From an uncultured Myxococcales bacterium (GTDB lineage Bacteria > Myxococcota_A > Polyangia > Polyangiales > Polyangiaceae): a stretch of 41,667 nt of DNA. The notes below the pieces were generated by a model. It was not told the origin of the DNA, searched no databases, and saw only the letters and a program-made list of their open reading frames with translations. The translations under genes were made by a program, and so were the position numbers. Shown in pieces: positions 1,666 through 17,448 of this stretch (position 1 is the first letter of the stretch; every line of letters begins with the position of its first letter). Where the stretch lies: the NCBI GenBank assembly GCA_937902985.1, contig CALFNG010000494.1, positions 1 through 41,667 of the forward strand, written 5' to 3'.

Positions 1666-1840
1666 ACCCGCGAACAGCCCGAATTTGAATGCGTACGCCG
1701 AACGGTTCGTTCGGTCGATCAAGCAGGAATGCCTGCGGCACATCATCCCATTGGGCGAACGCCATCTGCGCACCGCCGTCCACGAGTTCGTCGAGCACTA
1801 CCACTCCGAGCGCACCCAGCACTGGGGCACATGTCCATGA
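1666..1840 (+). pseudogene. Transposase (rve/DDE integrase) C-terminal relic
   Basis: This is a fragment of the C-terminal part of an IS transposase integrase core. The translation contains [17 protein letters not shown], then an ECL motif carrying the probable third acidic residue of the DDE triad, then [11 protein letters not shown]. This is the conserved end of IS3-like rve transposases. The N-terminal domain, the first two catalytic Asp residues and the normal C-terminus (QGLGN-type motif) are missing. The frame ends early at a TGA after QHWGTCP. A second copy of the same segment lies at 17653-17923 in the same orientation, with 29 of 36 residues identical over the first shared stretch. 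No terminal inverted repeats were found nearby. Confidence 0.75.
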
Positions 1841-1916: not shown

Positions 1917-2942
1917 TCAGCGAAACACGAGCTCGAGCCCAATCGAAGCGAGCAGGAGAGGCTCACCCCATGACTCGTTGTCTTCCGTGAACGTGAAAGT
2001 CGGGCGCGGAACCGCGACCGCAGCGGCCAAGTCGGCGCGAATCCGAAGCGGACGCGCGATCGAAACGGCATATCCAATTTTTGCATACGGAGTGGCAACC
2101 CAGGTGGTGCGCGTGGCTCCGGAAAAGCCGCCGTTCGGAAAGCCGCGCGTTTGAATCGTGGCCGCGCCGGCGCCCACCCCGGCGTCGACGAGGCACCACG
2201 ACGCGGCGCTCCATTGCGCGCGAACGCCCGCGCCGACGAGGCCGAAGATCAACGTGGCCGAACCCTCGCTTTCGGTGCGCTCCGCGTGCGTGAGCGGCAG
2301 AACGCCGAGGAGCTCGATGCCCCACGTTGGCGTCCACGCCCAGTGGAGCGAGAGGAGCGCCTCCGACGATCCGCCGAACGGGCCGGTGCCCGAAGCGAAG
2401 GCGAGGCCGGCGGCGGCGCCGAATCGCGGAGGGGGCGCCTGCGGCGCGAGCACGGCACGGTCGTTGGGGATCACGGGTGCGGGTGCGCTTTGGACCGGTG
2501 CCGTCCCGCCCGGATCGCGGAGAGACGCGCGCAGTGCTTCGGTGGCGCGGAGTCCGACGACCGCTGGATCGTCGTCGATGCGCACCACGTACCGCCGTGC
2601 CATCTGGCCCGCCTTTCGGTCGATCGTCCAGATCCTGACTTCACCCGCCACGGGATCGATTTCGACCGCGGCGACGGCATCGGTTGGGCGCGTGAGCCGC
2701 TCGATTTCGCGCGCGGTGCGTGGCGCGGGCGCGTCTTGCACTGTGGTCACGGTAAGACCCGCGGCGCGGAGCTCCGCCACGACACGCGTCGCCGTTGGAT
2801 CGTCGCCGGCCGCGATCATGAGAACGGTCGCGGGCGAAGGGAGTGCCCGCTCCGCGGCGAGGGCACCGGCGTGCCATCCAACGAGGCTCACGAAGGCGAC
2901 GACGCGAACCTGACGTCGAGCGACGCGCGCCCACGACGACAT
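1917..2942 (-). CDS. Secreted protein with C-terminal barrel-like domain
   Basis: A 341-residue protein. The start ATG (2942-2940) overlaps the TGA of the upstream FecR/TPR gene by one base (TGATG), so translation is probably coupled. Residues 1-30 form a Sec signal peptide with likely cleavage after GALA. An N-terminal domain (about 30-140) has an alternating alpha/beta pattern. A Pro-rich linker (about 145-175) is followed by repeated amphipathic strands rich in Gly, Trp and aromatic residues, ending in LELVFR; a terminal aromatic plus basic end fits an outer-membrane beta-barrel. No enzyme motif is visible. As the last gene of a sigma/FecR operon it may sense or transport a ligand at the cell surface, which is inference. 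I do not recognise a named family. Confidence 0.8.
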   Translation of the reverse strand: MSSWARVARRQVRVVAFVSLVGWHAGALAAERALPSPATVLMIAAGDDPTATRVVAELRAAGLTVTTVQDAPAPRTAREIERLTRPTDAVAAVEIDPVAGEVRIWTIDRKAGQMARRYVVRIDDDPAVVGLRATEALRASLRDPGGTAPVQSAPAPVIPNDRAVLAPQAPPPRFGAAAGLAFASGTGPFGGSSEALLSLHWAWTPTWGIELLGVLPLTHAERTESEGSATLIFGLVGAGVRAQWSAASWCLVDAGVGAGAATIQTRGFPNGGFSGATRTTWVATPYAKIGYAVSIARPLRIRADLAAAVAVPRPTFTFTEDNESWGEPLLLASIGLELVFR

Positions 2943-4213
2943 CAAGGGTTCGCGGCAAGCTGTCGCGCGAGCGGCGCTTGCGCTCCGCTCGGGTACTGAT
3001 GGAGATACTCCTGCGCCGCAGCGCGCGCGCGGTCGGGCACACCCGCCCGTTGCCAGGCCTCCATCGCCCGCCCCTGCGCCTCCCGGCGGAGGTCTCCCTG
3101 GGGCTGCTCGGCCAGATACGTCTCGAACCATCGTGCGGCGGTCGCGAAGTCGCGCTCCTGCTCGAATGCGGTCAGTCCCAAACCGTACGCGCTTCGGCCG
3201 CCGCCCGGCAACTTGGCTCGCGCCGCGGTGTACGCCTGGCGAGCCCGTTTCACGCTCACGGCGAATCGCGCGACGTCTCCCAATTGGAGCAAATCGACGC
3301 CCGCCGCGCGCCGGCATTGCTCGTCGAAGCCGATCCGCTCCACGAGATCCAGCGCTTCGCGATAACGCCCGGTCGTCACGAGATCGCGCCACCCATCCGA
3401 TTCCAGAACGCTCGACGACGGTGCAGCCAAGTGCGGGGCCGGGGACACGCGCACGCCTTCCGCGGCTTCGATCGCGCCACGCGCGCCCGCATCCTCGGCC
3501 TCCGCCGCACGGGGCGGCTCGAGTTGGGAATTCGGCCGCGGCGCCGAGCTGACTTCGTCCGCCTCGTCGCTCGTTTCGACGATCTCGTCGTGCGTCGCAT
3601 GGCACGACACGCGGAGTCGATGACCGCGCCCGACGGCCCTCGGCTCTTGCATGCAAGGGCCCGACACGAGCACCGAGCCCTCGTGAAGGTCAAGGCGAAA
3701 AATTTCATCGTCGGAATCCCAATTCACGTCGAACAAGGTGCCTACGACCACGACCTCGAACGGACCGACATCGAAGGCCCATCGGCTGGCCGCCCGGTGC
3801 GTCACGGAACCGCTCGCGCCTCCTCGCTCAATCACGACCCGCGCGCCATTTTCGTCCGACGCCGCGACGCGCGCGCGCGATCCGGCATAGAGCGAGACGA
3901 GCGACCCATCCGAAAATCGCAACGGAAGTGGACCTTCCGGCGGCGCCGCAATCCACGCGCCCACGCGCCCCACTTGCCCCCCCGGTGCCGTGAACGCGAG
4001 TCCGGCCGCGACGCGCGAACGCCATAGGACCGCGAAGATCGCGGCGGCGGCGACGAGCGGGAGCGTCACGGCGAGCGCCCACCGCCCGCGCCGGCTTGGC
4101 GTACGCCACGACAAGGCGCGACGCCCCGCCGCCTCGGCCAAGTATTGATTGCGCTCGCAGGCGCGATCTTGCTCGCCGCGAACGCTTTCGCGGAAACGCT
4201 CGTAGGAGTTCAT
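2942..4213 (-). CDS. FecR-domain membrane protein with TPR-like C-terminus
   Basis: A 423-residue putative sigma-factor regulator. The chosen start (ATG 4213) overlaps the TGA of the sigma gene as ATGA; an upstream in-frame start at 4285 would lie deep inside the sigma gene and is less likely. Residues 1-44 are cytoplasmic and charged, and 45-64 form a single transmembrane helix. Residues of about 75-195 are a FecR domain (SDGSLVSLYAGSRARV, VGTLFDVNW, LHEGSVLVSG). An acidic linker follows, then from about 285 to the end tetratricopeptide-like helical pairs (GRYREALDLVERIG, FATAARWFETYLAEQP). In the FecR family the periplasmic domain signals to an ECF sigma factor. Here the cytoplasmic part is short and lacks a recognisable zinc anti-sigma motif, so it could be an anti-sigma or a co-activator. 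Confidence 0.88.
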   Translation of the reverse strand: MNSYERFRESVRGEQDRACERNQYLAEAAGRRALSWRTPSRRGRWALAVTLPLVAAAAIFAVLWRSRVAAGLAFTAPGGQVGRVGAWIAAPPEGPLPLRFSDGSLVSLYAGSRARVAASDENGARVVIERGGASGSVTHRAASRWAFDVGPFEVVVVGTLFDVNWDSDDEIFRLDLHEGSVLVSGPCMQEPRAVGRGHRLRVSCHATHDEIVETSDEADEVSSAPRPNSQLEPPRAAEAEDAGARGAIEAAEGVRVSPAPHLAAPSSSVLESDGWRDLVTTGRYREALDLVERIGFDEQCRRAAGVDLLQLGDVARFAVSVKRARQAYTAARAKLPGGGRSAYGLGLTAFEQERDFATAARWFETYLAEQPQGDLRREAQGRAMEAWQRAGVPDRARAAAQEYLHQYPSGAQAPLARQLAANP

Positions 4214-4794
4214 GTCTCGTCCCCCGAAGGGTCCTCGGGCAGCGCGTGTTCGCGCAGGATCGGGTCGCGCCGGGCCCTTCGCCAAAAAGTCCGCTTCGCG
4301 CGCGCGAGCCGTCTCTTCGCCGTCGCCAGCGAGACCCCCGTCATCTCCGCGATCTCCGCCACGTCCGTCCCGTCGATGACCTGCAACGCGAAGGCGATGC
4401 GCTCATCGGCGGGAAGGGTGTCGAGTATCAAGTAGGTGCGCGCGAGCGCCTGACTCACCTCGGGAGACGCCACCGCCGCTGGAGCCTCCGGTACTTCGTC
4501 GAGAGAGAAGACACTGAGCCAACGGCGCCGCGATCGACGATTGCGGAGAAATCCGCGCGCCGTGAAGAGCGCAACGCTGCCGATCCATCCCTTCAACGCC
4601 GACGGGTCACGCAAGCGCCGAATGCCCTCGAGCGTGCGCGCGAAGGCCTCGTTGATGAGATCGGGAACTTCGGAGTGTAGGCCCACCGAGCGCACGATCA
4701 AGCGCTGGACGTACGGCCCGTAGCGCTCGAAGAGGAGCTCCGCCGACCCGGCCTCGTTGCCCTTGAGCGCCTTGACCAAAGCCGCGTCCGTCAT
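4210..4794 (-). CDS. ECF-type RNA polymerase sigma factor
   Basis: A 194-residue sigma-70 family protein. Region 2 is at about residues 15-65 (ELLFERYGPYVQRLI, DLINEAFARTLEGI). Region 4 is at about 120-175 (LDTLPADERIAFALQVIDG, then a helix-turn-helix VAEIAEMTGVSLATAKRRL). Region 3 is absent, as in ECF factors. The gene overlaps the FecR gene by four bases (ATGA). The start is uncertain: ATG 4794 fits the domain edge but has no Shine-Dalgarno, whereas GTG 4866 is preceded by AGGA about ten bases upstream and would add 24 residues. It presumably directs polymerase to a small regulon, possibly the surrounding glycan genes; no target promoter was identified. Confidence 0.9.
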   Translation of the reverse strand: MTDAALVKALKGNEAGSAELLFERYGPYVQRLIVRSVGLHSEVPDLINEAFARTLEGIRRLRDPSALKGWIGSVALFTARGFLRNRRSRRRWLSVFSLDEVPEAPAAVASPEVSQALARTYLILDTLPADERIAFALQVIDGTDVAEIAEMTGVSLATAKRRLARAKRTFWRRARRDPILREHALPEDPSGDET

Positions 4795-4958
4795 CGTCGG
4801 CGGAAAGAGGCGCGTCACGCCGCTTCGCGCGGGGCCGCCGGGCCGGCGATGGATGGGGGTGCTCACGATCTGACCATCCTGTTTCGATTCTCGTGATACC
4901 AGTGTCCGGGCCCTCCGGGAAGGCTCAGACTTCCCGCGCATCCGCCGAAGCGCCGCCG

Positions 4959-6827
4959 CTACGGCAGTCCGTAGACGTTGAGCGCGTTCGAGAAAGTCGC
5001 AACGAAAACGCGACCGTTCGCGACGACGGGCGAGTTGAACTTGGCGACATCCGCGAGTGTCCCATTGTCGAGCGTCAGCGGGTCGGCCTTCCAAAGCACG
5101 TGCGTGATGTCCGCCGCATCGACCGCGTAAAGGACGCCGGTGTCGAGGACATGCCACGCGCCGTTTCCCGGGTCCTTCGGCGTGGACGCCCAAAGGATCG
5201 CCGTGCCGGCGGCGTTCCCGTTTGCCGAGAGGGTCATGATCCCGCCGGGATGACCCGGCAGGACCGCGGCGAATCCGCCCTGGGCGAGCGGGCCGCCCGA
5301 CGCGTTGGTGGTGAGCAAATGGGTCGTCGGATCCATCCCGTATTCGATCAGCTGCGAATCTTCCGGCCACAGGTACACGCGCTCGCCCGCGCCGTTGGGG
5401 AGATCGTAGTATATGGGGCCGCCGTGCAGATGCCCGTTCAAACCCGCCGCTTTTCCGGGCGTCACCAGCGTTTGCAGAATCTGGTCGCCGGATTTGCTGT
5501 ACTTGCCCAGATTCGTCGAATTAAGGACGTACAGCGCGCCGCCCTTACTCCCCGTCAGAAGCAGGTTGTGCGGCAAGAGAACGGCGCCGGTGCTCAAATC
5601 CGAGTCGGCCCGGTTGAGCGACACGTAAGCGGTGGGCGTCCAATAGTCTTGGACGCTGAAGTCCGACAGCGCGAGGCGGATCACGCTTTCCGAAAGATCG
5701 GGCGGAGTCGCGGTGGGGTTTGTGCTCCCGTTTCCCGCTGCGAGGAACAGGCTCGTTCCGTCGCTCGACAATCCGACCCCACCTTGCCAGATGCCCCCTT
5801 GGCTGCCGTTGGGCGTCACGTTGAAAACGCGCGCCTGCGTGAACTTTTTACCGTCGTAGGAATAGCCGAGGACCCATCCGTGATATGGCTGTATATCGCA
5901 ATGGCTCGCGAAGGCGGCGTAGACAATCCCGTTTTCGAGGAGCATGCCTGCTCGCCCGAGTTGGTATGTTGGGTCGAACGACACGATGCCGCCTACGGCG
6001 TCGCTCGCGGTCCCCTTGACGGACGCCGTGATGCGGATCGGCGATCCCGGGAGCTCCTTTCCACTGGCGACGTTGAGCGCGTGCAGCATCTGCGCCCATG
6101 ACGTTCCGGTGTAGGTTTTGTTGACGACGTAGAGGACGCCGGCGACGGGGTCGATCACCGGCGTCGCCGTGATTCCCACCGCGGGCGCGAGGTTGTCGCA
6201 CTGGATCGGGCCGGAGGTCGACGGCCCCGACGGGCCGAGCGACGTCTCCCATAGCGGAACCGACGAGCGGGTTTCGGCCGCGTCGAACGCGTCGACGACG
6301 TTGTGTTCCGTCGCGACGAAGACGACGTCATGCACACTCCCGTCCGCCATCGTCAGGTGACTGAGATAGAGCGGTTGCGCGTAGATCTGACCGTCGACCG
6401 CCTGGGAGAAGAGCAGGTGAAAATTGGTCGTATTGACGTTCGAGGTCGTGAGCACCTGTTCGCTGAGGTTGACTCCGGAGCGCGCATCATCGTAGCGATT
6501 GGTCAATACGGAAAAGCCAGAGCTCGGGGCCCCGGTCGCGTCGGTTGCGTTCGCATCCACCGCGGCGTCGCCCGAAGAGGGCGGCGCGCTCGCACCATCT
6601 TGACTCGGCGCCGGAGGGCTCGACCCATCGTCTCCGCTCATCAGCGATCCTGCGCCGTCGGCGCGAAACGACGCCCCGCCGTCCCCGCTTTCATTCGAGC
6701 TCGGCTGCCCGCACGCGCTCGCGATCGCCAGCGCAAAGGCCAGCGCTCCCGCGGCGCCGCCGCCACGTCGAGCGAGCCCCAGCGGGCCTCCGTGCCGGTC
6801 GCTCCGACTCACTTTGAACAATCGCAT
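4959..6827 (-). CDS. PQQ-like beta-propeller lipoprotein
   Basis: A 622-residue lipoprotein. The start at 6827 is supported by AGGAGG eight bases upstream and by a TGATG overlap with the stop of the upstream gene. Residues 1-38 form a long basic n-region plus hydrophobic core; Cys39 (IASAC) is the likely lipidation site, followed by a Ser/Gly/Asp-rich linker to about residue 110. The rest is a set of propeller-blade repeats of the PQQ/BamB type (TATPVIDPVAGVLYVV, LLTGSKGGALYVLNSTN, NSPVVANGRVFVATF). No PQQ-dehydrogenase catalytic signature was seen, so a binding or scaffold role on the surface is more likely than an enzyme. It is the third gene of a coupled minus-strand set starting at 9345. 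Confidence 0.85.
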   Translation of the reverse strand: MRLFKVSRSDRHGGPLGLARRGGGAAGALAFALAIASACGQPSSNESGDGGASFRADGAGSLMSGDDGSSPPAPSQDGASAPPSSGDAAVDANATDATGAPSSGFSVLTNRYDDARSGVNLSEQVLTTSNVNTTNFHLLFSQAVDGQIYAQPLYLSHLTMADGSVHDVVFVATEHNVVDAFDAAETRSSVPLWETSLGPSGPSTSGPIQCDNLAPAVGITATPVIDPVAGVLYVVNKTYTGTSWAQMLHALNVASGKELPGSPIRITASVKGTASDAVGGIVSFDPTYQLGRAGMLLENGIVYAAFASHCDIQPYHGWVLGYSYDGKKFTQARVFNVTPNGSQGGIWQGGVGLSSDGTSLFLAAGNGSTNPTATPPDLSESVIRLALSDFSVQDYWTPTAYVSLNRADSDLSTGAVLLPHNLLLTGSKGGALYVLNSTNLGKYSKSGDQILQTLVTPGKAAGLNGHLHGGPIYYDLPNGAGERVYLWPEDSQLIEYGMDPTTHLLTTNASGGPLAQGGFAAVLPGHPGGIMTLSANGNAAGTAILWASTPKDPGNGAWHVLDTGVLYAVDAADITHVLWKADPLTLDNGTLADVAKFNSPVVANGRVFVATFSNALNVYGLP

Positions 6828-8215
6828 CAGATTCCTCCTGCGGTCGATTGGCGGCGTCGCGGCGCCGTGCGCATCCGTTTCCGAGAACGGTGACGGGCCG
6901 CTGCGAGACCCAGCCATCCGAAGAGCAACGCGCCGGAGGTCCGAGCCGAGGGGACTCCAACCGCGGGGAGCGCGCATGCGCATCCCGCCGGGGCCGAAGG
7001 CAACGATGCAGACGATGCCTCCGGAGGGCGCGTGCCCGAGTCGGTGGGCTCCACGAAGCCGTCGCTCGCGTCGATCTCACACGCCGGAAGCATCGCGCAC
7101 AGAGACGGCGCCTCGACCGCACACACGCTCGCAGAGGTGGCCGGAGGGCACGTGACCACCCGGGAAGCGCTGGCAAGATGGAGGAGCGGCGTGAAGGATC
7201 GGCCTTCGTCGTTCGATTGACCCAGCGCGAACACGGTGTCGTCCGAGCACGCATAGAGCCGAGTGCCGGCGGTGGCGAGGCATTGAATCGCGGTGCTCGA
7301 AACTTGCGTAAATGAGAGCGTCGCCGCGTCGCCGACCCAAAGTCCGTCGTCGGGACCGCCTGCGTAGATGGTCGTCCCGTCGGGCGAGAGCGCAAACCCT
7401 TGCATCTCGCCTGCGAACGACAACGGCGCGGAAAACGTTTGCCCGGCGTCGTCCGAGACGAGCAAGCGGGAGATCGGCCACGTGCGCAGGTAGATCCGGT
7501 CGGCGTTCTGGGGATCGACGGCGGCGATGTACGCGGCCGACTCGAGCTTGGGATCGATCGGGACGGCGCTCTCGACGAACGTCGACCCACCGTCGCGAGA
7601 GACGTAGAGAGCGGCGTTCTCCGTCTCGTAGATCCCGTGGACTCCGCAGGCGTAGATCCGATTGGGATCGGACGCGGCCACGTCGACCGTTTGCAGCAGC
7701 GCGGTCGGGTCGATGGACGGGCTCGCCGGAGACCAATGCAAGCCGTCGTCGAGCGTTTGAAAGACGTGGGTTTCGAAGGTCGACAGACCGGCATCATCGG
7801 TGTGCTGCTGCCACGCCAGAGAGACGGCGTGGTCTGGGTTGTCGGGGTGAACCGCCACGTCGGCGCTGACCCAGCCGGAAAGGTCGGACGCGAAGGCCCA
7901 CGCACAACCCGTATCGCTCGACGTCGCCATCCCCTGGTACGTCGCCGCAAGAATCGTCCCGTTCGCCGTCACGCCAACGGCCGGATCCTCCTCCGAATCC
8001 GGCGAACCAAAGGCTGATTCGCAGATCCAGCCCCAGCTCTGGCCGGCGTCGCGAGACACGAGGAGTCCGAAGGTCGCGCGGAGCACGAGCACGTTCGCGT
8101 CGGACGGGTCCACAACGAGCTGATTGGTCGCCGGGAACCGCCCATTCGCCCGCGCCGGCGTGCTCGCAAAGAGAATGCTGGACGATAGGACGCCGAGCAG
8201 ACCGCGACCTCTCAA
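6827..8215 (-). CDS. Secreted BNR/VPS10-like beta-propeller with MYXO-CTERM
   Basis: A protein of about 462 residues. No ATG exists near the natural N-terminus; the best start is TTG 8215 (or TTG 8221), overlapping the stop of the upstream gene (TTGA), which gives a clean signal peptide ending ARA-NG. The body contains repeated Asp-box-like blades (VSRDAGQSWGW, QTLDDGLHWSPA, VSRDGGSTFVES, VSDDAGQTFSAP), typical of BNR/sialidase-like or VPS10-like propellers. No catalytic Arg triad or other sialidase signature was recognised. The C-terminus has GCACA, a hydrophobic stretch and an Arg/Lys cluster, matching the MYXO-CTERM anchoring pattern of myxobacteria. Its TGA overlaps the ATG of the PQQ-repeat gene. 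Likely a surface-anchored binding protein. Confidence 0.8.
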   Translation of the reverse strand: MRGRGLLGVLSSSILFASTPARANGRFPATNQLVVDPSDANVLVLRATFGLLVSRDAGQSWGWICESAFGSPDSEEDPAVGVTANGTILAATYQGMATSSDTGCAWAFASDLSGWVSADVAVHPDNPDHAVSLAWQQHTDDAGLSTFETHVFQTLDDGLHWSPASPSIDPTALLQTVDVAASDPNRIYACGVHGIYETENAALYVSRDGGSTFVESAVPIDPKLESAAYIAAVDPQNADRIYLRTWPISRLLVSDDAGQTFSAPLSFAGEMQGFALSPDGTTIYAGGPDDGLWVGDAATLSFTQVSSTAIQCLATAGTRLYACSDDTVFALGQSNDEGRSFTPLLHLASASRVVTCPPATSASVCAVEAPSLCAMLPACEIDASDGFVEPTDSGTRPPEASSASLPSAPAGCACALPAVGVPSARTSGALLFGWLGLAAARHRSRKRMRTAPRRRQSTAGGI

Positions 8216-9345
8216 TTCCAATTGACCACCGGGGTGACGAGGCCGATGCGGAGCGCGGGCGGGCCGCCGGGCCCCGACGGCTGAAACGAGGGAGCCCCCG
8301 CGCCGGACGGCTGGACGTCGAGAGCATCGATGTCCGCAGCGTCGGACGTAGTGAAGCCGGGAGCCTTGATCTCGATCATATTCGGCCCCGCGCGGAGCGA
8401 TAGAGCGACAACGGCGCCGTGCACAATCGCCCAAGAATCAGGATATGCAGGAAACTCGTAGTACACCGCCTCTTGCCCGCCGACGGTCGCCGAGGTCTGG
8501 ACGCCGTTCACCAGGATGAGATGCGGCCGGCATCCGCTACCCGCACCGGTATCGTAGTTCACTCCACCGCAATGAGCGTCTCCATACGTGTCGGCCTTGC
8601 CGGGTGTCAGTTGGCCGCTGTGATACCAAAACGTCACGTCGTACGTGCCATCGACCGGGACCGTCACGCCGTTGAACGTGACTCCCCCTCCCAGATTTCC
8701 GCAACCGGTGTAGCTCGTCGCCGAAGTCGGCGGAGTGCACGGGGATCGCCCGAGGACCTGATTGACGACGTGGCCGCCCGAAGCGCAATCGGCCCCCTCC
8801 TTCACCCCGTCCGAGCTCGTCCCGGGGACGCCCGAGCACGGCTGGGCCCCGTCGGTCACGACGCCTTCGACGGGAAAGCTCCGCGTGTTCATGGCGGACT
8901 CGGCCTCGTAGCGCACGAAGAACGTCGCTGGCACGTCCGCTTCGGAGTCGTCGCGGGAGGACGACCCGTCAGCATTGGCGCCCGTCGCGCCGTCGCCCAC
9001 CGAAGCGCTCCCGCTGGCGTCGAGGAGGCTGTCGTCGATCGGACGTGCATCGATCAAACCGGAGTTGCTGGACCCGGCGGAGCCGTCAAGGTTCGAGAGG
9101 GAGGTCGAGTCGGGACCCCCGCCCTCCGGCAGCGGACCCGAATTTGTCGAGCCGTTGCCTCCATCGGTACGACCGGACCCGCCCGGATTGGAGTCGCTCG
9201 AACCGCATCCCGCCACGAGCGCTGCGGCCACCAGGGCGGCGCCCGTCAGACGAGGCAAGCCCATCAGGCGAAGCAAGATGTACGCCGTGGATTCGGAGCA
9301 AGAACTGACGGCCAGTGGCTTCACGTCGCTGCGCTCATGGGTCAT
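8212..9345 (-). CDS. CBM-like Cys-rich carbohydrate-binding lipoprotein (paralogue A)
   Basis: A 377-residue lipoprotein. ATG 9345 has GGAGGA 12 bases upstream; ATG 9264 gives a more usual signal length but has no ribosome-binding site. With the first start, Cys47 (LVAGC) is the lipidation site, followed by a Gly/Ser/Asp linker to about residue 140. The C-terminal domain begins with VRYEAES, a common start of CBM6/CBM35-like beta-sandwiches, and has GTYDVTFWYHSG and DAADIDALDV near the end. It is Cys-rich and shares DGVKEGADC, HCGGVNY, CRPHLILVNGV and a VTPVV C-terminus with the protein at 11770-12537, so the two are paralogues. It starts a minus-strand set divergent from the GH31 gene, with 142 bases between. 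Probable role: holding a glycan at the cell surface. Confidence 0.85.
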   Translation of the reverse strand: MTHERSDVKPLAVSSCSESTAYILLRLMGLPRLTGAALVAAALVAGCGSSDSNPGGSGRTDGGNGSTNSGPLPEGGGPDSTSLSNLDGSAGSSNSGLIDARPIDDSLLDASGSASVGDGATGANADGSSSRDDSEADVPATFFVRYEAESAMNTRSFPVEGVVTDGAQPCSGVPGTSSDGVKEGADCASGGHVVNQVLGRSPCTPPTSATSYTGCGNLGGGVTFNGVTVPVDGTYDVTFWYHSGQLTPGKADTYGDAHCGGVNYDTGAGSGCRPHLILVNGVQTSATVGGQEAVYYEFPAYPDSWAIVHGAVVALSLRAGPNMIEIKAPGFTTSDAADIDALDVQPSGAGAPSFQPSGPGGPPALRIGLVTPVVNWN

Positions 9346-9487
9346 GGCCTTCTCGAGTCCTCCATAGGGTCGTCGCCCGCTGTCGGCCGGTCAGTGTCGC
9401 GGGGGCTGGGATTCGGCTCATGCCGCGCGTCGTCCGCGCCGTCGTCGATGGGTGAGCCTTCCAAGGGGCGACGGACACAGAACTCGC

Positions 9488-11569
9488 ATGAGTCAACGTT
9501 CAACGCGCTCTGGCGCCCTTCGCCGCGGCGCGGCGGGGCCGAGGCCCCCTCGCTCCTTCGCGCTCGCGCTCGCGCTGTCGGGCGCCCTCGCGTGCGGCAG
9601 TTCCGACTCCGGCTCACCGGAGTCCATCGACGGCGGCGCGCCGGCGGATGGGACTTTGCGCTCCACGTCTGGCGCGGCGAGTGACGCGAACGTCGGCGAG
9701 GGTCCCGATGCAAGCGTGAGCGACGACGACGCGAACGCAAGCGCGACTACGAACGATGCCAATCAGGTGACGACGGCGTGCGAGGGACCAGGGGTGCCCG
9801 TTCCCGCGGCCGCGCGTGTCTCCAACGGAAATCCGCTTCTGCCTCCGAAGTGGGCCTTCGGCATTCTGTGGGGCAGTTACTACGATCAGATCGGAAGCAC
9901 CTTTGCACAAAATGGCAACATCTTGACCGCGGCGACCCAGCTTCGCGCGCAATACTCGGGCGACCTGATGTGGATCGATTCGAGCTGGCTGTGGCACAAT
10001 TACAGCGGCGACCCCGCAGGCACGCCCAACTATATCAATTTCAAGTTCGATACCACGACCTTTCCCGATCCGGCCGGGATGATTAAAACTCTTCGGGAAA
10101 ATCACTTCCATTTCGGCGTGTGGGAGTGGCCGTGGGAGGACCACGGGGCTCCGTACTTTCAGGATGCAGTCACCAACAAGTACTTCGTCATGAACGGGAC
10201 GGCCGCTGCGCTTGCGACCACCGGCTGGCACGGCGATCCGAATCCCGCGGAATTCGACTTCACGAACCCCGCGACGGTCACCTGGTGGACGGGCTTGAAC
10301 ACGACCCTCGCGGACTGGGGCCTCGATTTTCTCAAGCTGGATACGACCGTCGCGCAACAGAGAAGCCCGATCAGCGCGGGCGGTGGCCAATACTTCGACA
10401 CGGCGAAAAGCTACCAACACGAGCGCAACGGCGCGGCCTACGAGATAACGAAGGTTTATGCGGCGGCGCACGATCCCAACGCGATGATGAACGGCGCGCG
10501 CGGGTTCATCATGCCCAAGGCGGCATCGCCCGCCAACGATCAATTCCCCGGCTGGTGGACCGACGACACGGACGCGACCTGGGCCGATTTGGCCGTCGAG
10601 ATGGGCCGCGCGTCGCAGCTCAACACGTCGACGACAGCCGCCTACTGGTGCGGCGACACCGGGGGGTACAACCACGTACCGACCGACGAGCTATACGTTC
10701 GCTGGCTCGAGTATACGGCCTTCACTCCGCTTCAGGAGTTCTTCGGCGGCAAAGCGCCGGGCATCGGGGCGAGGTTCCCCTGGCTCTTTGGAGCGCAAGC
10801 GCAGCAGATCGAGCAACAATACTCGGACCTCCGCTACCGCCTTTTGCCCTTCCGCTACTCGAACGCATTGGCCGCGTACGAAGTGACGCCGGTGGCCTAT
10901 CCCGTCACCTGGATCGGATCGACCCAGCTTCTCGTGGGCAACGGCTCGAGCCAAATGCTCGTCCAACCGGTGACGACGCAGGGCGCGACTTCGGCGTCCG
11001 TCAAGCTCCCAGCCGGTGCGACCTGGATCGACTACTGGACCGGAAAATCGTATCCCGGAGGAACGACGCAAGTCGTCCCGGCGCCGATCGCGCAGGAGCC
11101 CGTATTCGTCAAGGCGGGCGCCATCCTCCCGATGGGCCCCGTGCAGCATTACGTCGGCGAACACACGGCCGACCCCCTCACCCTCGACATCTACCCGGCC
11201 GGGGCGACGAGTTACACGCTCTACGAGGACGACGGGACGAGCGAAGGCTACCTCGGGGGCGCGTACTCCACGACGACGTTTTCCAGCAATGACACCGGCG
11301 GAACTCTGGTCGTCACGATCGGTCCTCAGGTGACTGCCAAATACTCCTACGCAGGTCAACTGTGCGCGCGAACTTATCTGCTCAAAATCAATGGGCAGAC
11401 AGCCGCCCCGACCTCCCTGACGCGCGATGGGCGTCCCGAGCCGATGGTGTCGGCGGCCGCGTTCGACGGCGGCACGCCCGTGGAGGGCTGGTACTATGAT
11501 CCGATCGCAAAAACGGTTTGGGTCGAGTTTCCGCTCGCGTCGACCGACAAAACGAGCGTGTCTCTCTAG
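9488..11569 (+). CDS. Glycoside hydrolase family 31 lipoprotein
   Basis: A 693-residue protein. An upstream GTG at 9452 is possible; ATG 9488 gives a basic n-region, a hydrophobic core and Cys36 (GALAC) as lipobox, then an Asp/Ser-rich linker. The catalytic barrel begins near residue 118 (KWAFGILWGSYYDQIG). The probable nucleophile is Asp285 in DFLKLDTT, and the probable acid/base is Asp360 in GWWTDDTDATW, matching the GH31 WxGDNxATW motif. A C-terminal beta domain follows (LPAGATWIDYWTGKSYPGG, EPVFVKAGAILPMGP). The N-terminal mutarotase-like sandwich usual for GH31 is missing or replaced by the linker. GH31 enzymes are retaining alpha-glucosidases or alpha-xylosidases; specificity cannot be told here. 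It is surface-anchored rather than intracellular. Confidence 0.92.
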   Translation: MSQRSTRSGALRRGAAGPRPPRSFALALALSGALACGSSDSGSPESIDGGAPADGTLRSTSGAASDANVGEGPDASVSDDDANASATTNDANQVTTACEGPGVPVPAAARVSNGNPLLPPKWAFGILWGSYYDQIGSTFAQNGNILTAATQLRAQYSGDLMWIDSSWLWHNYSGDPAGTPNYINFKFDTTTFPDPAGMIKTLRENHFHFGVWEWPWEDHGAPYFQDAVTNKYFVMNGTAAALATTGWHGDPNPAEFDFTNPATVTWWTGLNTTLADWGLDFLKLDTTVAQQRSPISAGGGQYFDTAKSYQHERNGAAYEITKVYAAAHDPNAMMNGARGFIMPKAASPANDQFPGWWTDDTDATWADLAVEMGRASQLNTSTTAAYWCGDTGGYNHVPTDELYVRWLEYTAFTPLQEFFGGKAPGIGARFPWLFGAQAQQIEQQYSDLRYRLLPFRYSNALAAYEVTPVAYPVTWIGSTQLLVGNGSSQMLVQPVTTQGATSASVKLPAGATWIDYWTGKSYPGGTTQVVPAPIAQEPVFVKAGAILPMGPVQHYVGEHTADPLTLDIYPAGATSYTLYEDDGTSEGYLGGAYSTTTFSSNDTGGTLVVTIGPQVTAKYSYAGQLCARTYLLKINGQTAAPTSLTRDGRPEPMVSAAAFDGGTPVEGWYYDPIAKTVWVEFPLASTDKTSVSL

Positions 11570-11769
11570 TGTCTCGAGTCAGAGTTCGTCGCAGAGGGGT
11601 TCGACCAACCGACAGCGCCCAGGGTTGCAGAATTCCAAGGTCTCGCCGGCCAATTTCTCCCTCACGGGGTGTGGTGAATCTCTGATCCATGGGCGCTTCG
11701 TCCATTTTCTCGCGCGAGCCTGCGTGCCCTCTCGCGCACGGCCAGTCTTCGTCCCACACTAGGGAGACG

Positions 11770-12537
11770 ATGGGGTGTGTGATCCGGCACCTTTTTGCGA
11801 TGGCGCTCGTTGGCGTGGCCTGCGGCTCCTGCGATGACTTGACGGTACCGGTTCTTTGGCGTACTTCGTCCGCGTCTCCGGTCGACAGCGGCGCGAGCCT
11901 CCCGCGGCGCTATGAGGCCGAGGCGACGCCCCCAAACGTCCTCACGCAGAGCGCGATCGCCGATCTCACCTGTTTCGGGACCAACCAGGTCTGCCCCGCG
12001 GACGGAGTGAAGGAAGGGGCGGACTGTTGTTCCGGCGGCGGAGTCGTGACGGGAATACTTGGACGAGTTCCCTGCAGTGGCCCTCCGGGCAATGCTGGTG
12101 ACTACGTCGACTGCCAGATGGTGGGCGGGGGCGTCGAGTTCCGCGATGTGACCGTTGCTTCGACCGGCACGTACGACGTGACGTGGTGGTACCACTGCGG
12201 AGAAAATAACAGCTACGGAGACACGGCATGCGGCGGCCTCCACTACGCCGTCGGCTCCTCGTGTCGACCGCATCTCATCGACGTCAATGGCGTGCCGGTG
12301 TCCGCGGAGACCGACGGACAAGCGGCTCTCATCTACCAATTTCCGTGTTACGCGGGCGCCTGGTCGATTGTTCACGGCGCGACGACCGCCCTTCCGCTCC
12401 TCGCGGGGCAGAACACCGTCTTGATTCACGCGCCGCACGAGCTCGATCTCGACAGCGCCGACATCGACGCGATCGAGTTGCAAGCGCTGGGCCAAGGTCC
12501 CCAACCGCTCGTCACGCCGGTGGTGTCGGGATATTGA
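11770..12537 (+). CDS. CBM-like Cys-rich carbohydrate-binding lipoprotein (paralogue B)
   Basis: A 255-residue lipoprotein. ATG 11770 has GGGAGA five bases upstream; the in-frame ATG at 11689 is less likely. The signal peptide ends at Cys18 (VGVAC), and the linker is short compared with paralogue A. The domain starts with RRYEAEA and keeps DGVKEGADC, GGGVEFRDV, GTYDVTWWYHCG, CGGLHY, CRPHLIDVNGV, WSIVHGA and SADIDAIEL, all aligning with 8212-9345. The ends VTPVVSGY and VTPVVNWN also match. Conserved cysteines suggest disulfide bonds. It lies 200 bases downstream of the GH31 gene on the same strand, which suggests that it binds the GH31 substrate or product. The CBM6/35-like assignment is a fold-level guess. 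Confidence 0.85.
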   Translation: MGCVIRHLFAMALVGVACGSCDDLTVPVLWRTSSASPVDSGASLPRRYEAEATPPNVLTQSAIADLTCFGTNQVCPADGVKEGADCCSGGGVVTGILGRVPCSGPPGNAGDYVDCQMVGGGVEFRDVTVASTGTYDVTWWYHCGENNSYGDTACGGLHYAVGSSCRPHLIDVNGVPVSAETDGQAALIYQFPCYAGAWSIVHGATTALPLLAGQNTVLIHAPHELDLDSADIDAIELQALGQGPQPLVTPVVSGY

Positions 12538-12771
12538 ATCGCGGTCTTCCTGGTCACCGTCACCGCCGCCTGGACTGCACGTAGACTTTTCGCTCCACAG
12601 CGGACGCCCGCTCCATTTATCAGCGCCGCGTGCTCTGACGCGCCATGGGCTGACCCGCCACTCGAACCTGGCGGGCCGACACGTCCATGGCCAACGCGGT
12701 GCCTCGCTCGCCGCACGTCACCGATCGCGATCGCGTGAGCCGTCCCGGGGGGGTTGGGACACCGAGCCGCC

Positions 12772-13911
12772 ATGAGTCGATCCTCCGCGATCAACATCAA
12801 CAAGGAAACGCAACGCGCGCCTCGTCCGAGCCACACCGTCCGCCCCACGCTCGGTCCCGACACCCGCATGCGGTCCGATGGGCTTCGCCCGTCCCGCGAG
12901 CGTGCAGTAACGAATCCTGTCGCGTTCGTCCTGTTCTTCGCCGCCTTGGGCGCGGCGGGATGCAGCTCCGAAACTAAAGCCACGAACCTCGTCGACCCCG
13001 GCCTCCCGCCAGACGGCAGGATTCCGGGCGACTCCACGCCCGACTCCGCTAGCAGCGCTGGGATCGATGGTAGCATCCAAGGCTCACTTGACGGAAGCCG
13101 CCAAGATGACGGCGCCGGCTCCGACCTCGATACCGGGATGAGCGATACCAGAAATGACTCTGCAGCGAGTACGGGGCCGGCTGCCCAGCCCGACGCCGGC
13201 GCGGGTTGCGGCTCCCCGTATGGCCCCAACCTCTGCTCCATGTTCAACGGCACGAGCCTTGCCGGGTGGACTGAAGTGGTCAACGGCAAGGTGACGAACA
13301 ACAATTGGACAGTCGTCGACGACGGACCGGGTTCGCCCGTGATGCACAGTTCAGGCGCCAACAGAAACTTCATTTATTACAACGTGAACAAGTATGGCGA
13401 TTTCCGATTTATCTTCACCGTAAAACTCATCTCCGACGACGCGGACAGCACTCCCCACGTCCCGTGCGTGCTCTTTTGGGGCTCGTCGACGACGGCCGAC
13501 GCGATGAATGCCCTGCAGCTTCAACCCCCTAAGGGGTACACTTGGGACTATCGCAAAAACAGTACCAATACGGGCGGCGCCCTCGGCACGAAGGCAGTCA
13601 AGGGCTATCCGGGGGCAGACACATCGTGGGCTCAGTGCGAAATGTTGGCCAACGTCGCGGCAGGCACGACGCGGATGGCCTGCTGCCCCAGCAACGGGGA
13701 GGCGAAATGTGCGAGCACACCCGCCGTGGAGATCGTGGATTTCACGGTGGATGACGCGGAGCCGAACGTGATTGCCCAGATGCCTTACTATCTAGCCCTC
13801 CAGGCTCACACCGGCAACAGCGGCGCAAAGACGGGTCAGATCGAGGAATTCAAGGACCTCTACGTCGAATCGCCCGTGGTGAATCCAACGACATTCGTTA
13901 CTACGCAATAG
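12772..13911 (+). CDS. 3-keto-disaccharide hydrolase (DUF1080)-like lipoprotein
   Basis: A 379-residue protein. Starts at 12754 (TTG), 12772 and 12868 are all possible; none has a clear ribosome-binding site, and 12868 would give the most usual signal length. Hydrophobic core VAFVLFFAALGAAGC provides the lipobox, then a Ser/Asp/Gly linker. The C-terminal domain starts with LCSMFNGTSLAGWTEV, the hallmark opening of the DUF1080 concanavalin-like fold, and ends with the expected QIEEFKDLYVES strand. Family members are often secreted by planctomycetes and myxobacteria; some hydrolyse 3-keto-glycosides, others may only bind glycans. It sits between the second CBM-like gene and the GH39 gene on the same strand. 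Confidence 0.82.
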   Translation: MSRSSAININKETQRAPRPSHTVRPTLGPDTRMRSDGLRPSRERAVTNPVAFVLFFAALGAAGCSSETKATNLVDPGLPPDGRIPGDSTPDSASSAGIDGSIQGSLDGSRQDDGAGSDLDTGMSDTRNDSAASTGPAAQPDAGAGCGSPYGPNLCSMFNGTSLAGWTEVVNGKVTNNNWTVVDDGPGSPVMHSSGANRNFIYYNVNKYGDFRFIFTVKLISDDADSTPHVPCVLFWGSSTTADAMNALQLQPPKGYTWDYRKNSTNTGGALGTKAVKGYPGADTSWAQCEMLANVAAGTTRMACCPSNGEAKCASTPAVEIVDFTVDDAEPNVIAQMPYYLALQAHTGNSGAKTGQIEEFKDLYVESPVVNPTTFVTTQ

Positions 13912-13951
13912 CCCCTGCAGTTAATAGCTCCCAACGAAACGACAACTTCGC

Positions 13952-16114
13952 GTGAATAACCGGATGCAAAATTGTCGTTCTTTTTCCCCATCGAGCGCTC
14001 TCGCCAGGGCGACGACGCGTTCTCCCTGCAGGTCTCGGGGTAACCTACGCATCATAGCCATCTGGGCTGGAGTCTCCCTGGCAACGTACGACAAGATGCC
14101 AGAGGCGCTCGCCCAAACGGCGACCACCGTGAGCATTTCGGTGGACGCAACCGCGCCCGGGACTCCCATCGAGCCCATCTGGGCATTCCATGGATTCGAC
14201 GAGGTCAACTACACCACGACGGCTGAGGGCCAAGCGCTCCTCCAGCAGCTGGGATCGATTCCGCCGACCCGGCCACACATTCGCTCGCATTTCCTGCTGA
14301 ACACCGGAAACGGGACACCATCGTTCAAGTGGGGGTCGACCAATGTGTACACAGTCGACGCCGCGGGCAGTCCAATTTACGATTGGACGTCGATGGACGG
14401 TATCATGGATACGGTCACGAGCTCAGGCGCCGCACCCTATGCCGAAATTGGATTCATGCCGGAAGCCTTGTCTTCGCACCCCACTCCGTATCAAAATTCC
14501 GGGATCTACACGCTGGACGGCGGCTGCTTTTATCCCCCGACCGACTACGCGAAATGGGGGAGCCTCATTCAGGCTTGGGCCACACACTCGAACACTCGTT
14601 ATCCATCAGCCGCGAGCACGTGGCAGTGGGAACTATGGAACGAGCCCGACATCGACTATTGGAAAGGCACCGCCGCAGAGTACGATCGGTTGTTTGACTA
14701 CACTGAATCGTCCTTGCATCAAGTGATGCCCACCGCCCCCCTTGGAGGGCCGGCGACGGCGGGGACGGGCGCCTTTTTCACCCAGTTTCTTCAACACTGC
14801 GCCACCGGCACCGACGCGGTTACGGGCAAGCAAGGCGTGCGCCTCGACATGGTGTCCTTTCACGCCAAGGGCGGCGTCACCGTGACGGGCGGGCACGTCG
14901 AAATGAATCTGGGCCATCAGCTCCAGCTTCATAGCGATGGTTTCAAAGCCGTCGCCGCCTTCCCGCAATACAAGCACACGCCCATCGTCATTAGCGAAGC
15001 CGATCCCGACGGATGCGCCGCCTGTCCCAAGAGCCAGAACGCTTCCTACGCCTACCGCAACTCGCCAGTCTACGGCGCGTACGAAGTAGCGATGATGAAG
15101 CACACACTCGAGCTCGAATCAAGCATCGGCGTCAACGTCCGAGGCGTCCTCGCCTGGGCGTTTCTTTTTGAGAATCAGCCCTATTTTGCGGGGTATCGCG
15201 TCCTGTCGAGCCATGGCATCGACCTTCCCGTCTTCAATGCGTTCAAGCTCCTGGGAAGTTTGAGCGGCCAGACGATTCCCGTCACAAGCACGGGAGCGCT
15301 GACGCTCGACGCCATCCTCGCGAACAGCGTTCGCGGGCAGGCCGACGTCAATGCCATGGCCACTCTCAACGGCCAGCAGATTCAGGTTCTCGTTTGGAAC
15401 TATCACGATGACCTGGTGGCGGTGCCCGCTTCGCCCGTGCATTTGACCGTCCGGGTTCCAGCCGCCTTCGGTCCGCTCGCGGTCGTCGACCATTTGCGCG
15501 TCGATGACACGCATGGGGACGCCTACACGGTCTGGGTATCGCAGGGCACTCCGGCGGTCCCCACGGCGACACAGCTGACGCAACTACAACGAGCGATGGT
15601 GCCCGCGGTCTTTCAGCCAGAACAAGCGGTGCCCGTGACGGCCGGCGCCGTGGCCCTCGACTTCGACTTGCCGCGTTTCGGGATTTCGCTCGTGACCCTG
15701 GCTCCTCCCACCGGCGCTCTCGATGCGTCGACGCGCGAGGCTGGTTCCGAAGGGGACAATCTCGACGACGCCGGCCCGGCGCCGGATGCCACGAGTCCAT
15801 TCATTTCGGTGGAAGATGCATCGCCGTCGCCTGGCTCCGCCCACGGCGCGGGAGACCAAGCCGGGGGGCCCGGCGCCGCCGGGTGCGGTTGTGGCGTCGG
15901 TCCCGCTGGGCTGGCCCCGCAGTCACTTTTGGTCTTGTTGCCAATGGCCGCGTTCCTGTTCCGGCGGCGCCAGCGTGTTCATTTGTCGGCGACCAGCGGC
16001 CGACGTGGCGGTCGCTATCGTAACGGAGAATTGACGCACATTGGTACCTCGAAATCATGGAAGGTTGGAGGGGTGACTGAACCCTGGCGTCGGCGGTCAC
16101 GAAAGGCCACGTGA
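13952..16114 (+). CDS. GH39-like glycosidase with MYXO-CTERM anchor
   Basis: A 720-residue protein (GTG 13952; ATG 13964 is an alternative; neither has a clear ribosome-binding site). A hydrophobic segment near 32-56 ending ALAQ is probably the signal peptide. The catalytic domain spans about 65-460: WELWNEPDIDYW places the acid/base at Glu231, as in GH39 beta-xylosidases and related clan GH-A enzymes; the probable nucleophile is Glu349 in TPIVISEADPDG. A beta-sandwich region follows (about 470-600), then an Asp/Gly linker and GCGCG, a hydrophobic helix and RRRQR, the MYXO-CTERM pattern. The frame continues about 50 residues past the Arg cluster, which is unusual. Its TGA overlaps the GTG of the next gene. 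GH39 members act on beta-xylosides or uronosides. Confidence 0.9.
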   Translation: MNNRMQNCRSFSPSSALARATTRSPCRSRGNLRIIAIWAGVSLATYDKMPEALAQTATTVSISVDATAPGTPIEPIWAFHGFDEVNYTTTAEGQALLQQLGSIPPTRPHIRSHFLLNTGNGTPSFKWGSTNVYTVDAAGSPIYDWTSMDGIMDTVTSSGAAPYAEIGFMPEALSSHPTPYQNSGIYTLDGGCFYPPTDYAKWGSLIQAWATHSNTRYPSAASTWQWELWNEPDIDYWKGTAAEYDRLFDYTESSLHQVMPTAPLGGPATAGTGAFFTQFLQHCATGTDAVTGKQGVRLDMVSFHAKGGVTVTGGHVEMNLGHQLQLHSDGFKAVAAFPQYKHTPIVISEADPDGCAACPKSQNASYAYRNSPVYGAYEVAMMKHTLELESSIGVNVRGVLAWAFLFENQPYFAGYRVLSSHGIDLPVFNAFKLLGSLSGQTIPVTSTGALTLDAILANSVRGQADVNAMATLNGQQIQVLVWNYHDDLVAVPASPVHLTVRVPAAFGPLAVVDHLRVDDTHGDAYTVWVSQGTPAVPTATQLTQLQRAMVPAVFQPEQAVPVTAGAVALDFDLPRFGISLVTLAPPTGALDASTREAGSEGDNLDDAGPAPDATSPFISVEDASPSPGSAHGAGDQAGGPGAAGCGCGVGPAGLAPQSLLVLLPMAAFLFRRRQRVHLSATSGRRGGRYRNGELTHIGTSKSWKVGGVTEPWRRRSRKAT

Positions 16115-17448
16115 CCTCGGCTCTTGCGCGCGAGGCTTCCAAGCTGGCTTGTAGCTCGATGGACGAGACGAAGGGGATGCTCTGGGCAATCGCGACCCTG
16201 ATCGTTGCGACCGACGGTCTCTGGGGCTGCTCGACTTCGAACGAAACGACCAGCGTCGCGGCCGACGCCACGAGCGAGCTTGGACAGCCCGACGGCTCTT
16301 CGAGTGGCAATGCTGCGCGGTCCGACGGGGGTCCCGCCGACGACGGGCTCGATGGCGCTGCGGACGGCAGCGTGGACGACACAGGGCTTGGGTACAGCGA
16401 CACGGCCGACACCGGGTCGGACGGCGGCGGTTCGGCCGATTCGGGCTATTCGGGCTCCACGACGCCCGGCGCGAGTCTGAGCTGCGCACCCGGCGGAGAG
16501 GGCATGACGAACTGCGGCGCGGGGGGAAACGGAAGTGAGAGCTGCTGCGCCAGCCTGGAAGTGACGGGTGGGACATTTTATCGGAGCTACGACGGCGTCA
16601 CATATACGAACAAGGGCAATCCGGCGACAGTAAGCACCGTTCGCCTGGACAAGTACGAGATCACAGTGGGGCGATTCCGGCGGTTCGTCGCTGCGGTTAT
16701 CGGTGGTTGGCGGCCGCCGGCAGGTTCAGGCAAACACACTCACTTGAACGGCGGCCGAGGGTTGAACGCGACGGGCGGCGGTTACGAGACTGGATGGGAC
16801 GCCGCAAACTGGGATGGCCTCCTCTTGACGACCGCCAGTGCATGGACCACCAACCTGGCGATGGCGCATGGAACTTGGACGCCGTCGGCCGGGAGCAACG
16901 AGAACAAGCCGATTAGCAACGAGACGTGGTACGACGCATATGCTTTCTGCATCTGGGATGGCGGCTTTCTGCCGAGCGAGGCGGAGTGGAATTATGCAGC
17001 GGCGGGCGGTGGCGGACCAACCGGCCAGCGCGTCTATCCGTGGTCGATCCCCTCGACGAGCGCGACAATCGACTGCTCGTACGCGAACTACGCCCCCCAG
17101 CAGCCCGGTACCGCCACTACGTCGTGCACCACACCGAGCTGCGTCGGCGGCTGCCCGGCGGACGCGCCGAACAACGTCGGTTCAGAATCTCCCAAGGGGG
17201 ATGGTGCGTATGGGCAAACGGACTTGGCAGGCAATATAGAGGAGTGGACGCTGGACCATGCTGGCGCCTACGTCACCCCATGTATCGATTGTGCGAATCT
17301 CACGGCGGCTTCTCCCAGGGAGTGGCGCGGCGGCGGCTGGAGTCCTGACTCGACGCGAGATGGAAACCTCGTCATCTCTTATCGCTTCAACTTCGCCTCG
17401 TCGAGCCGCTTCAACGATATGGGGGCTCGGTGCGCGAGGATTCCATGA
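16111..17448 (+). CDS. SUMF1/formylglycine-generating-fold lipoprotein, catalytic Cys absent
   Basis: Up to 445 residues. GTG 16111 overlaps the upstream stop (GTGA); ATG 16159 or 16177 would begin closer to the signal peptide (MLWAIATLIV to LWGC lipobox). After an Asp/Gly linker, the C-terminal domain has the SUMF1/FGE-sulfatase fold signatures: VRLDKYEITVGRFRRFV, FLPSEAEWNYAA, DLAGNIEEWTLD, WRGGGW and the closing MGARCAR. True formylglycine-generating enzymes carry a Cys pair just after RGGSW; here that stretch (SPDSTRDGNLVISYRFNF) has none, so sulfatase activation is unlikely. No sulfatase gene lies in the window. A ligand-binding or structural role in the surface locus is more probable. 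Confidence 0.85.
   Translation: MTSALAREASKLACSSMDETKGMLWAIATLIVATDGLWGCSTSNETTSVAADATSELGQPDGSSSGNAARSDGGPADDGLDGAADGSVDDTGLGYSDTADTGSDGGGSADSGYSGSTTPGASLSCAPGGEGMTNCGAGGNGSESCCASLEVTGGTFYRSYDGVTYTNKGNPATVSTVRLDKYEITVGRFRRFVAAVIGGWRPPAGSGKHTHLNGGRGLNATGGGYETGWDAANWDGLLLTTASAWTTNLAMAHGTWTPSAGSNENKPISNETWYDAYAFCIWDGGFLPSEAEWNYAAAGGGGPTGQRVYPWSIPSTSATIDCSYANYAPQQPGTATTSCTTPSCVGGCPADAPNNVGSESPKGDGAYGQTDLAGNIEEWTLDHAGAYVTPCIDCANLTAASPREWRGGGWSPDSTRDGNLVISYRFNFASSSRFNDMGARCARIP

Follow-up and report, generated by a model that had tools for sequence, protein, structure and literature searches.

A 41,667-nucleotide (nt) stretch of DNA from an uncultured Myxococcales bacterium (assembly GCA_937902985.1, contig CALFNG010000494.1; hereafter the window) carries genes for glycan-cutting and glycan-binding proteins beside an operon for an extracytoplasmic function (ECF) sigma factor. 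We interpret this locus as an ECF/anti-sigma-controlled set of surface proteins that capture and cut plant glycans, a reading that we consider probable. It rests on a promoter motif, derived from other species, that recurs ahead of each of the locus's transcription units. The window makes up contig C494 in full, within an assembly of 8.3 Mb and 563 contigs. The protein families that a preliminary description had named here are borne out by gene calling and profile searches, which raise its count of ten consecutive genes to eleven: three signalling genes and eight others, among them glycoside hydrolases (GH) and proteins resembling carbohydrate-binding modules (CBM). The genes are:

1917-2942, minus strand: small outer-membrane-barrel-like protein with a periplasmic N-domain (homologues follow FecR in most relatives)
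2942-4213, minus strand: FecR-domain anti-sigma-like protein with C-terminal TPR (Pfam FecR, E 1e-5, and TPR_16)
4210-4818, minus strand: ECF sigma factor, start codon uncertain (Pfam Sigma70_r2 and r4_2, NCBIfam sigma70-ECF)
4959-6827, minus strand: propeller 1 (PROP1), a PQQ-like propeller lipoprotein (propeller called by inspection)
6827-8221, minus strand: propeller 2 (PROP2), a BNR/sortilin-type propeller with a MYXO-CTERM-like tail (Pfam BNR, Sortilin-Vps10)
8212-9345, minus strand: CBMa, a CBM35-like lipoprotein (paralogue of CBMb; Foldseek match of a low-confidence model; PDB 2vzp)
9488-11569, plus strand: GH31 lipoprotein (Pfam GH31 TIM barrel, 1e-44, and C-terminal domains)
11770-12537, plus strand: CBMb, a second CBM35-like protein (paralogue of CBMa)
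12868-13911, plus strand, with an alternative upstream ATG at 12772: DUF1080 (3-keto-disaccharide hydrolase family) lipoprotein (Pfam PF06439)
13952-16114, plus strand: GH39 with MYXO-CTERM (Pfam GH39, 1e-46; TIGR03901)
16159-17448, plus strand: SUMF1/FGE-fold lipoprotein-like protein (Pfam FGE-sulfatase, 3e-25)

The strongest dyad upstream of the ECF genes of relatives is TGAGCC(G), followed in most of them by (nn)ACT 17 nt further on (TGAGCCG-N18-ACT). TGAGCC lies within 400 nt of the ECF gene in 15 of 18 relatives' operons, where 0.14 occurrences are expected for each. The motif is kept across ECFs that are only 35-48% identical, which is also the identity between the window ECF and the ECFs of the same operon in relatives. 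A weight matrix was made from 15 relatives' operons alone, with no sequence of the own genome, and scanned over the window. It scores above 6 upstream of four of the 26 window genes (ECF 12.6, CBMa 20.5, GH31 12.9, DUF1080 20.8; next best 5.1), and these are precisely the first genes of the locus's four transcription units. The scores at ECF, CBMa and DUF1080 are reached by 0.14-0.6% of random 150-nt windows. If the ECF site is set aside, since homology predicts it, the three remaining sites have a binomial chance of about 1.6e-6. The analysis relied on the full matrix or on exact forms of the motif, since the looser TGAGCC-N16-ACAC, allowing two mismatches, shows no enrichment in the window (28 occurrences vs 36 expected). 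The predicted ECF promoters are:

4899-4927, minus strand: sigma operon, TGAGCC-N16-ACACT (dyad and relatives' matrix)
9393-9420, minus strand: CBMa-PROP2-PROP1, TGAGCC-N17-ACACT (relatives' matrix)
9453-9480, plus strand: GH31(-CBMb), TGAGCCTTCC-N10-GGACAC (relatives' matrix; match to the sigma-operon site)
12736-12763, plus strand: DUF1080-GH39-SUMF1, TGAGCC-N17-ACACC (relatives' matrix)

The CBMa promoter is the sole exact TGAGCC-N17-ACACT match in the 8.3-Mb genome. The ECF and GH31 sites are identical in TGAGCCTTCC-N10-GGACAC (16 defined bases, 16-nt spacer), and no third exact copy of this form is found in the genome. PROP2 overlaps the stop codon of CBMa, and the start of PROP1 overlaps the stop of PROP2 (TGATG), so that one promoter can serve all three genes. 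Joint regulation of the glycan genes with the sigma operon, as previously proposed, is backed by these matches to a matrix from other species, and the motif predicts a common control of the four units. We infer that the local ECF is the sigma factor that uses these promoters.

The signalling genes follow the ECF/FecR arrangement: an ECF sigma factor with regions 2 and 4 is followed by a FecR-domain protein with a short cytoplasmic N-terminus, one transmembrane segment (located by inspection of the sequence), the FecR domain and TPR. The barrel protein (~340 amino acids) gave no match in Pfam or NCBIfam, including none to TonB-dependent receptors or the plug domain. By analogy with the ECF/FecR paradigm, the FecR/TPR protein would hold the sigma factor at the inner membrane, and the small barrel would probably relay an envelope or surface signal that sets it free. 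The freed sigma factor would then transcribe its own operon together with CBMa-PROP2-PROP1, GH31-CBMb and DUF1080-GH39-SUMF1 from the TGAGCC / nnACT promoters. The CBM35-like and propeller proteins may hold the glycan at the surface while the DUF1080 protein and the two glycoside hydrolases, GH31 and GH39, cleave it; the products would enter through transporters encoded elsewhere.

The motif extends beyond the window. Applied to the relatives themselves, the relatives-only matrix finds matches at ECF genes and adjoining lipoprotein genes. In one of these genomes (G110), about half of the 12 exact TGAGCCG-N18-ACT sites are found at ECF operons of that genome or at the lipoproteins that go with them; the motif is therefore tied to this ECF group. 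Genome-wide sites were sought by pattern searches. In the own genome, nine exact sites lie between genes and no more than 160 nt from one; a crude rule classes six of these nine genes as encoding lipoproteins, compared with 0 of 5 genes at control sites. The exact intergenic sites precede CBMa, genes for GH8, CBM3, GH45-like and GH39-family proteins, and a gene for a DUF6055 lipoprotein. Close to motif-bearing genes there are also genes for expansin-like DPBB lipoproteins, a Cip1-like protein and PD40 propeller lipoproteins, the last with sites in their vicinity. Together these sites suggest a plant-polysaccharide surface regulon scattered over the genome, in which hydrolase and propeller lipoproteins repeatedly occur together. 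The window locus is probably one of several places in this plant-glycan regulon, which a single ECF or several related ones would share. Outside the window, each member is no more than a candidate, because the sample is small and the motif background is not negligible.

Several observations weigh against our interpretation. The own genome contains 15 exact sites vs 10 for a reversed-pattern control, only a modest excess. Further ECF/FecR sites are present in the same genome and the motif is common to a group of ECFs, so the local ECF may not use it. The locus lacks transporter and sugar-metabolism genes, and the GH31 and CBM assignments are remote. With the genome in 563 contigs and the window equal to a whole contig, linkage is visible only within 41.7 kb. 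One alternative follows the second of these points: the motif would belong to the whole ECF group of the order, and the glycan genes would answer to another ECF, for example that of an ECF-FecR pair on contig C241 or of an operon on contig C508. One such ECF, 36% identical, shares its contig with a site-bearing GH1 gene, and the conservation of the motif across distant ECFs would fit this explanation. The sigma operon and GH31, however, share an identical promoter variant that occurs nowhere else in the genome, and we regard control by another ECF as unlikely.

Inspection reveals the catalytic motifs WNEP and ISEAD, with their two glutamates, in GH39, and FLKLD and WTDDTD, with the catalytic aspartates, in GH31. 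DUF1080 scores 37.4 bits against a cut-off of 26.8. GH39 is nearest to beta-xylosidases. GH31 is without the usual N-terminal beta-sandwich domain (its alignment to the structure 6jr6 begins at residue 257 of the latter) and is nearest by sequence to 6jr6/6jr8, which we take to be the dextranase FjDex31A, with an alpha-xylosidase second; these top PDB matches differ in specificity. The enzyme FjDex31A is described in PMC10316084. CBMa and CBMb, located on either side of GH31, are paralogues with 50-53% identity and match no Pfam family, even at an E-value of 10. CBM35 structures, uronate binders among them, are the top seven Foldseek matches for the CBM-like fold, but the model is of low confidence (pLDDT 41.6); the sole sequence match is the CBM35 of PDB 2vzp, a weak one (E 0.11). 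PROP1 matches no Pfam family, its structure prediction from the single sequence reaches a pLDDT of just 32, and neither PROP1 nor DUF1080 has a relative among solved structures. The SUMF1/FGE fold belongs to a large multi-copy family in the order (38 of 116 genomes, up to 8 matches per genome, 4 in the own genome).

Six of the eight non-signalling products had been described as apparent lipoproteins and two as bearing MYXO-CTERM-like anchors. Signal-type N-termini with a lipobox accepted by the crude rule are present in PROP1, CBMa, GH31 and DUF1080, and CBMb and SUMF1 have weaker lipobox-like cysteines. The anchor holds for GH39 alone, where TIGR03901 exceeds its curated cut-off (22.6 vs 20 bits) and a tail of 45 amino acids comes after the match; the C-terminus of PROP2 is a look-alike below the threshold. 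The CBM, propeller and hydrolase proteins are candidates for display at the cell surface. The earlier view of a putative surface-type glycan-degradation set, in which CBM and propeller proteins take the place of SusC and SusD, is supported.

The matches of GH31, GH39 and CBM35 are all remote, and the substrate is therefore not fixed by them. The xylose- or uronate-containing glycan suggested earlier is weakly favored by the proximity of GH39 to beta-xylosidases and by the uronate binders among the CBM35 matches of the low-confidence model, a family that could equally indicate other glycans; GH31 is ambiguous between the FjDex31A dextranase type and alpha-xylosidases. Our best guess is plant cell-wall hemicellulose, because cellulose-type genes carry the same motif. 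Alternatively, the set could target the cell's own slime or the surface glycans of prey in gliding, fruiting or predation, and not plant material as food. Myxobacteria include predators with large exopolysaccharide coats, the GH31 and GH39 families each cover many specificities, and uptake and catabolic genes are absent from the locus. Such a target appears improbable to us in the face of the same motif before a cellulose-type set (GH8, GH45-like, CBM3 and GH1).

FecR relatives are present in 47 of the 116 genomes of the order. Of the 20 neighbourhoods fetched, nearly all have an ECF gene before FecR and most have a barrel gene after it, and none of the 20 contains the glycan genes. The sigma-FecR-barrel trio is thus a widespread free-standing module, which in relatives stands beside unrelated lipoproteins. 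The preliminary description had treated the sigma operon as the locus's own; its conservation without the glycan genes, an outcome that the description had itself named as a refutation, refutes a conserved dedicated locus, but not joint regulation. The gene order of the locus, sought in relatives, was not found in the 20 FecR neighbourhoods, in 7 PROP1 neighbourhoods or in 46 GH31 loci of other groups, and these GH31 loci contain no second window gene except for weak GH39 matches in two. Within the order, GH31 relatives are remote (26-34% identity). PROP1 homologues, about 30-43% identical, are found in a few genomes without glycan genes. No relatives of the CBM, DUF1080 and GH39 proteins were found in 116, 116 and 284 genomes, respectively (order or phylum, at the thresholds used). 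The glycan cargo is rare and was probably acquired recently, since G+C content is 63-64% over 10-16 kb vs about 70% around it. Beyond the sigma operon lies a further feature:

1673-1813, plus strand: integrase-core (rve_3) transposase remnant, at a place often occupied by a further lipoprotein gene in relatives

That the glycan genes landed by chance beside a conserved sigma operon and are regulated independently would agree with their G+C content, the nearby transposase remnant and the missing relatives, but the promoter matches, which fall precisely at the four unit leaders, make this very unlikely: their recent arrival is likely, their independent regulation is not.

The ECF/anti-sigma-controlled polysaccharide utilization loci (PULs) of Bacteroides, reviewed in PMC10766802, likewise place an ECF and a FecR-type anti-sigma factor beside surface glycan-binding proteins and glycoside hydrolases. 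The window locus has such content (hydrolases, glycan-binding surface proteins and a regulator), with co-regulation predicted from the motif shared by all four leaders. Unlike those loci, it has no SusC/SusD pair and no TonB-dependent transducer, and instead encodes a small barrel and a TPR-bearing FecR; its sigma module is also conserved apart from the cargo. The earlier statement that SusC and SusD are lacking is upheld by the absence of SusD from the entire genome and of any TonB-receptor match for the barrel. Absence of SusD is expected outside Bacteroidota. The FecI-FecR-FecA system also combines an ECF sigma factor with a FecR domain, but relies on a TonB-dependent receptor, whereas the barrel of the window has no plug-domain match. 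Clostridium thermocellum employs several autoregulated, biomass-sensing alternative sigma factors of the sigma-I/RsgI type, whose promoter motif is distributed across dispersed plant-polysaccharide enzyme genes (PMC4711584). The predicted window system likewise joins dispersed genes and its own sigma operon by a common promoter motif; it differs in that C. thermocellum is Gram-positive and forms a cellulosome. RsgI itself bears an extracellular sensing domain, whereas in the window the FecR part lies in the periplasm and the barrel has a gene of its own. CBM35 modules, FjDex31A and alpha-xylosidases of GH31, and GH39 beta-xylosidases are the nearest folds or sequences to the window proteins; in contrast to them, the window GH31 has no N-terminal domain and the CBM units are stand-alone proteins.

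In the literature searched, no ECF-FecR system or polysaccharide locus of this kind is described for Myxococcota, nor did we find an account of how myxobacteria, with neither SusCD nor cellulosomes, regulate and display their polysaccharide-degrading enzymes; this is weak evidence, as most subscription papers lay outside the search. The window system is a candidate for a third architecture in which glycans are sensed through a sigma/anti-sigma pair, next to the Bacteroides loci and clostridial sigma-I/RsgI. Its motif offers a testable regulon and allows further surface glycan genes of the order to be sought from sequence alone. More tentatively, and with somewhat less than even confidence, we suggest that Polyangiales possess an undescribed modular surface-sensing system of ECF, FecR/TPR and small barrel, with interchangeable lipoprotein sets under one promoter type, which here may have become the master switch of a plant-polysaccharide surface regulon that is spread over the genome and replaces SusCD-type loci.

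Further arrangements were observed in relatives and elsewhere in the own genome. In relatives (L078-L097), the sigma operon is often adjoined by a gene for a variable lipoprotein, Cys-rich or of propeller type, and this gene carries the same promoter motif. Decayed copies of PROP1 and GH31 beside two GH43 genes in the own genome (contig C150, L098, 7484-11801, minus strand) are the relic of a related glycan locus, and no motif site is found before these remnants. Contig C241 (L215; 1878-3245, minus strand, and 12399-13654, plus strand) holds a GH1 gene and an ECF-FecR pair about 9 kb apart, a second candidate sigma-glycan locus; the matrix matches about 60 nt upstream of the GH1 gene. On contigs C30 and C58 (L212, L213), a cellulase-type lipoprotein gene (GH45-like, GH8) is divergent from a gene for a PD40 propeller lipoprotein, with motif sites near the units. 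These propeller lipoproteins bear a CIGCH haem-type motif, and expansin-like DPBB lipoproteins are encoded alongside.

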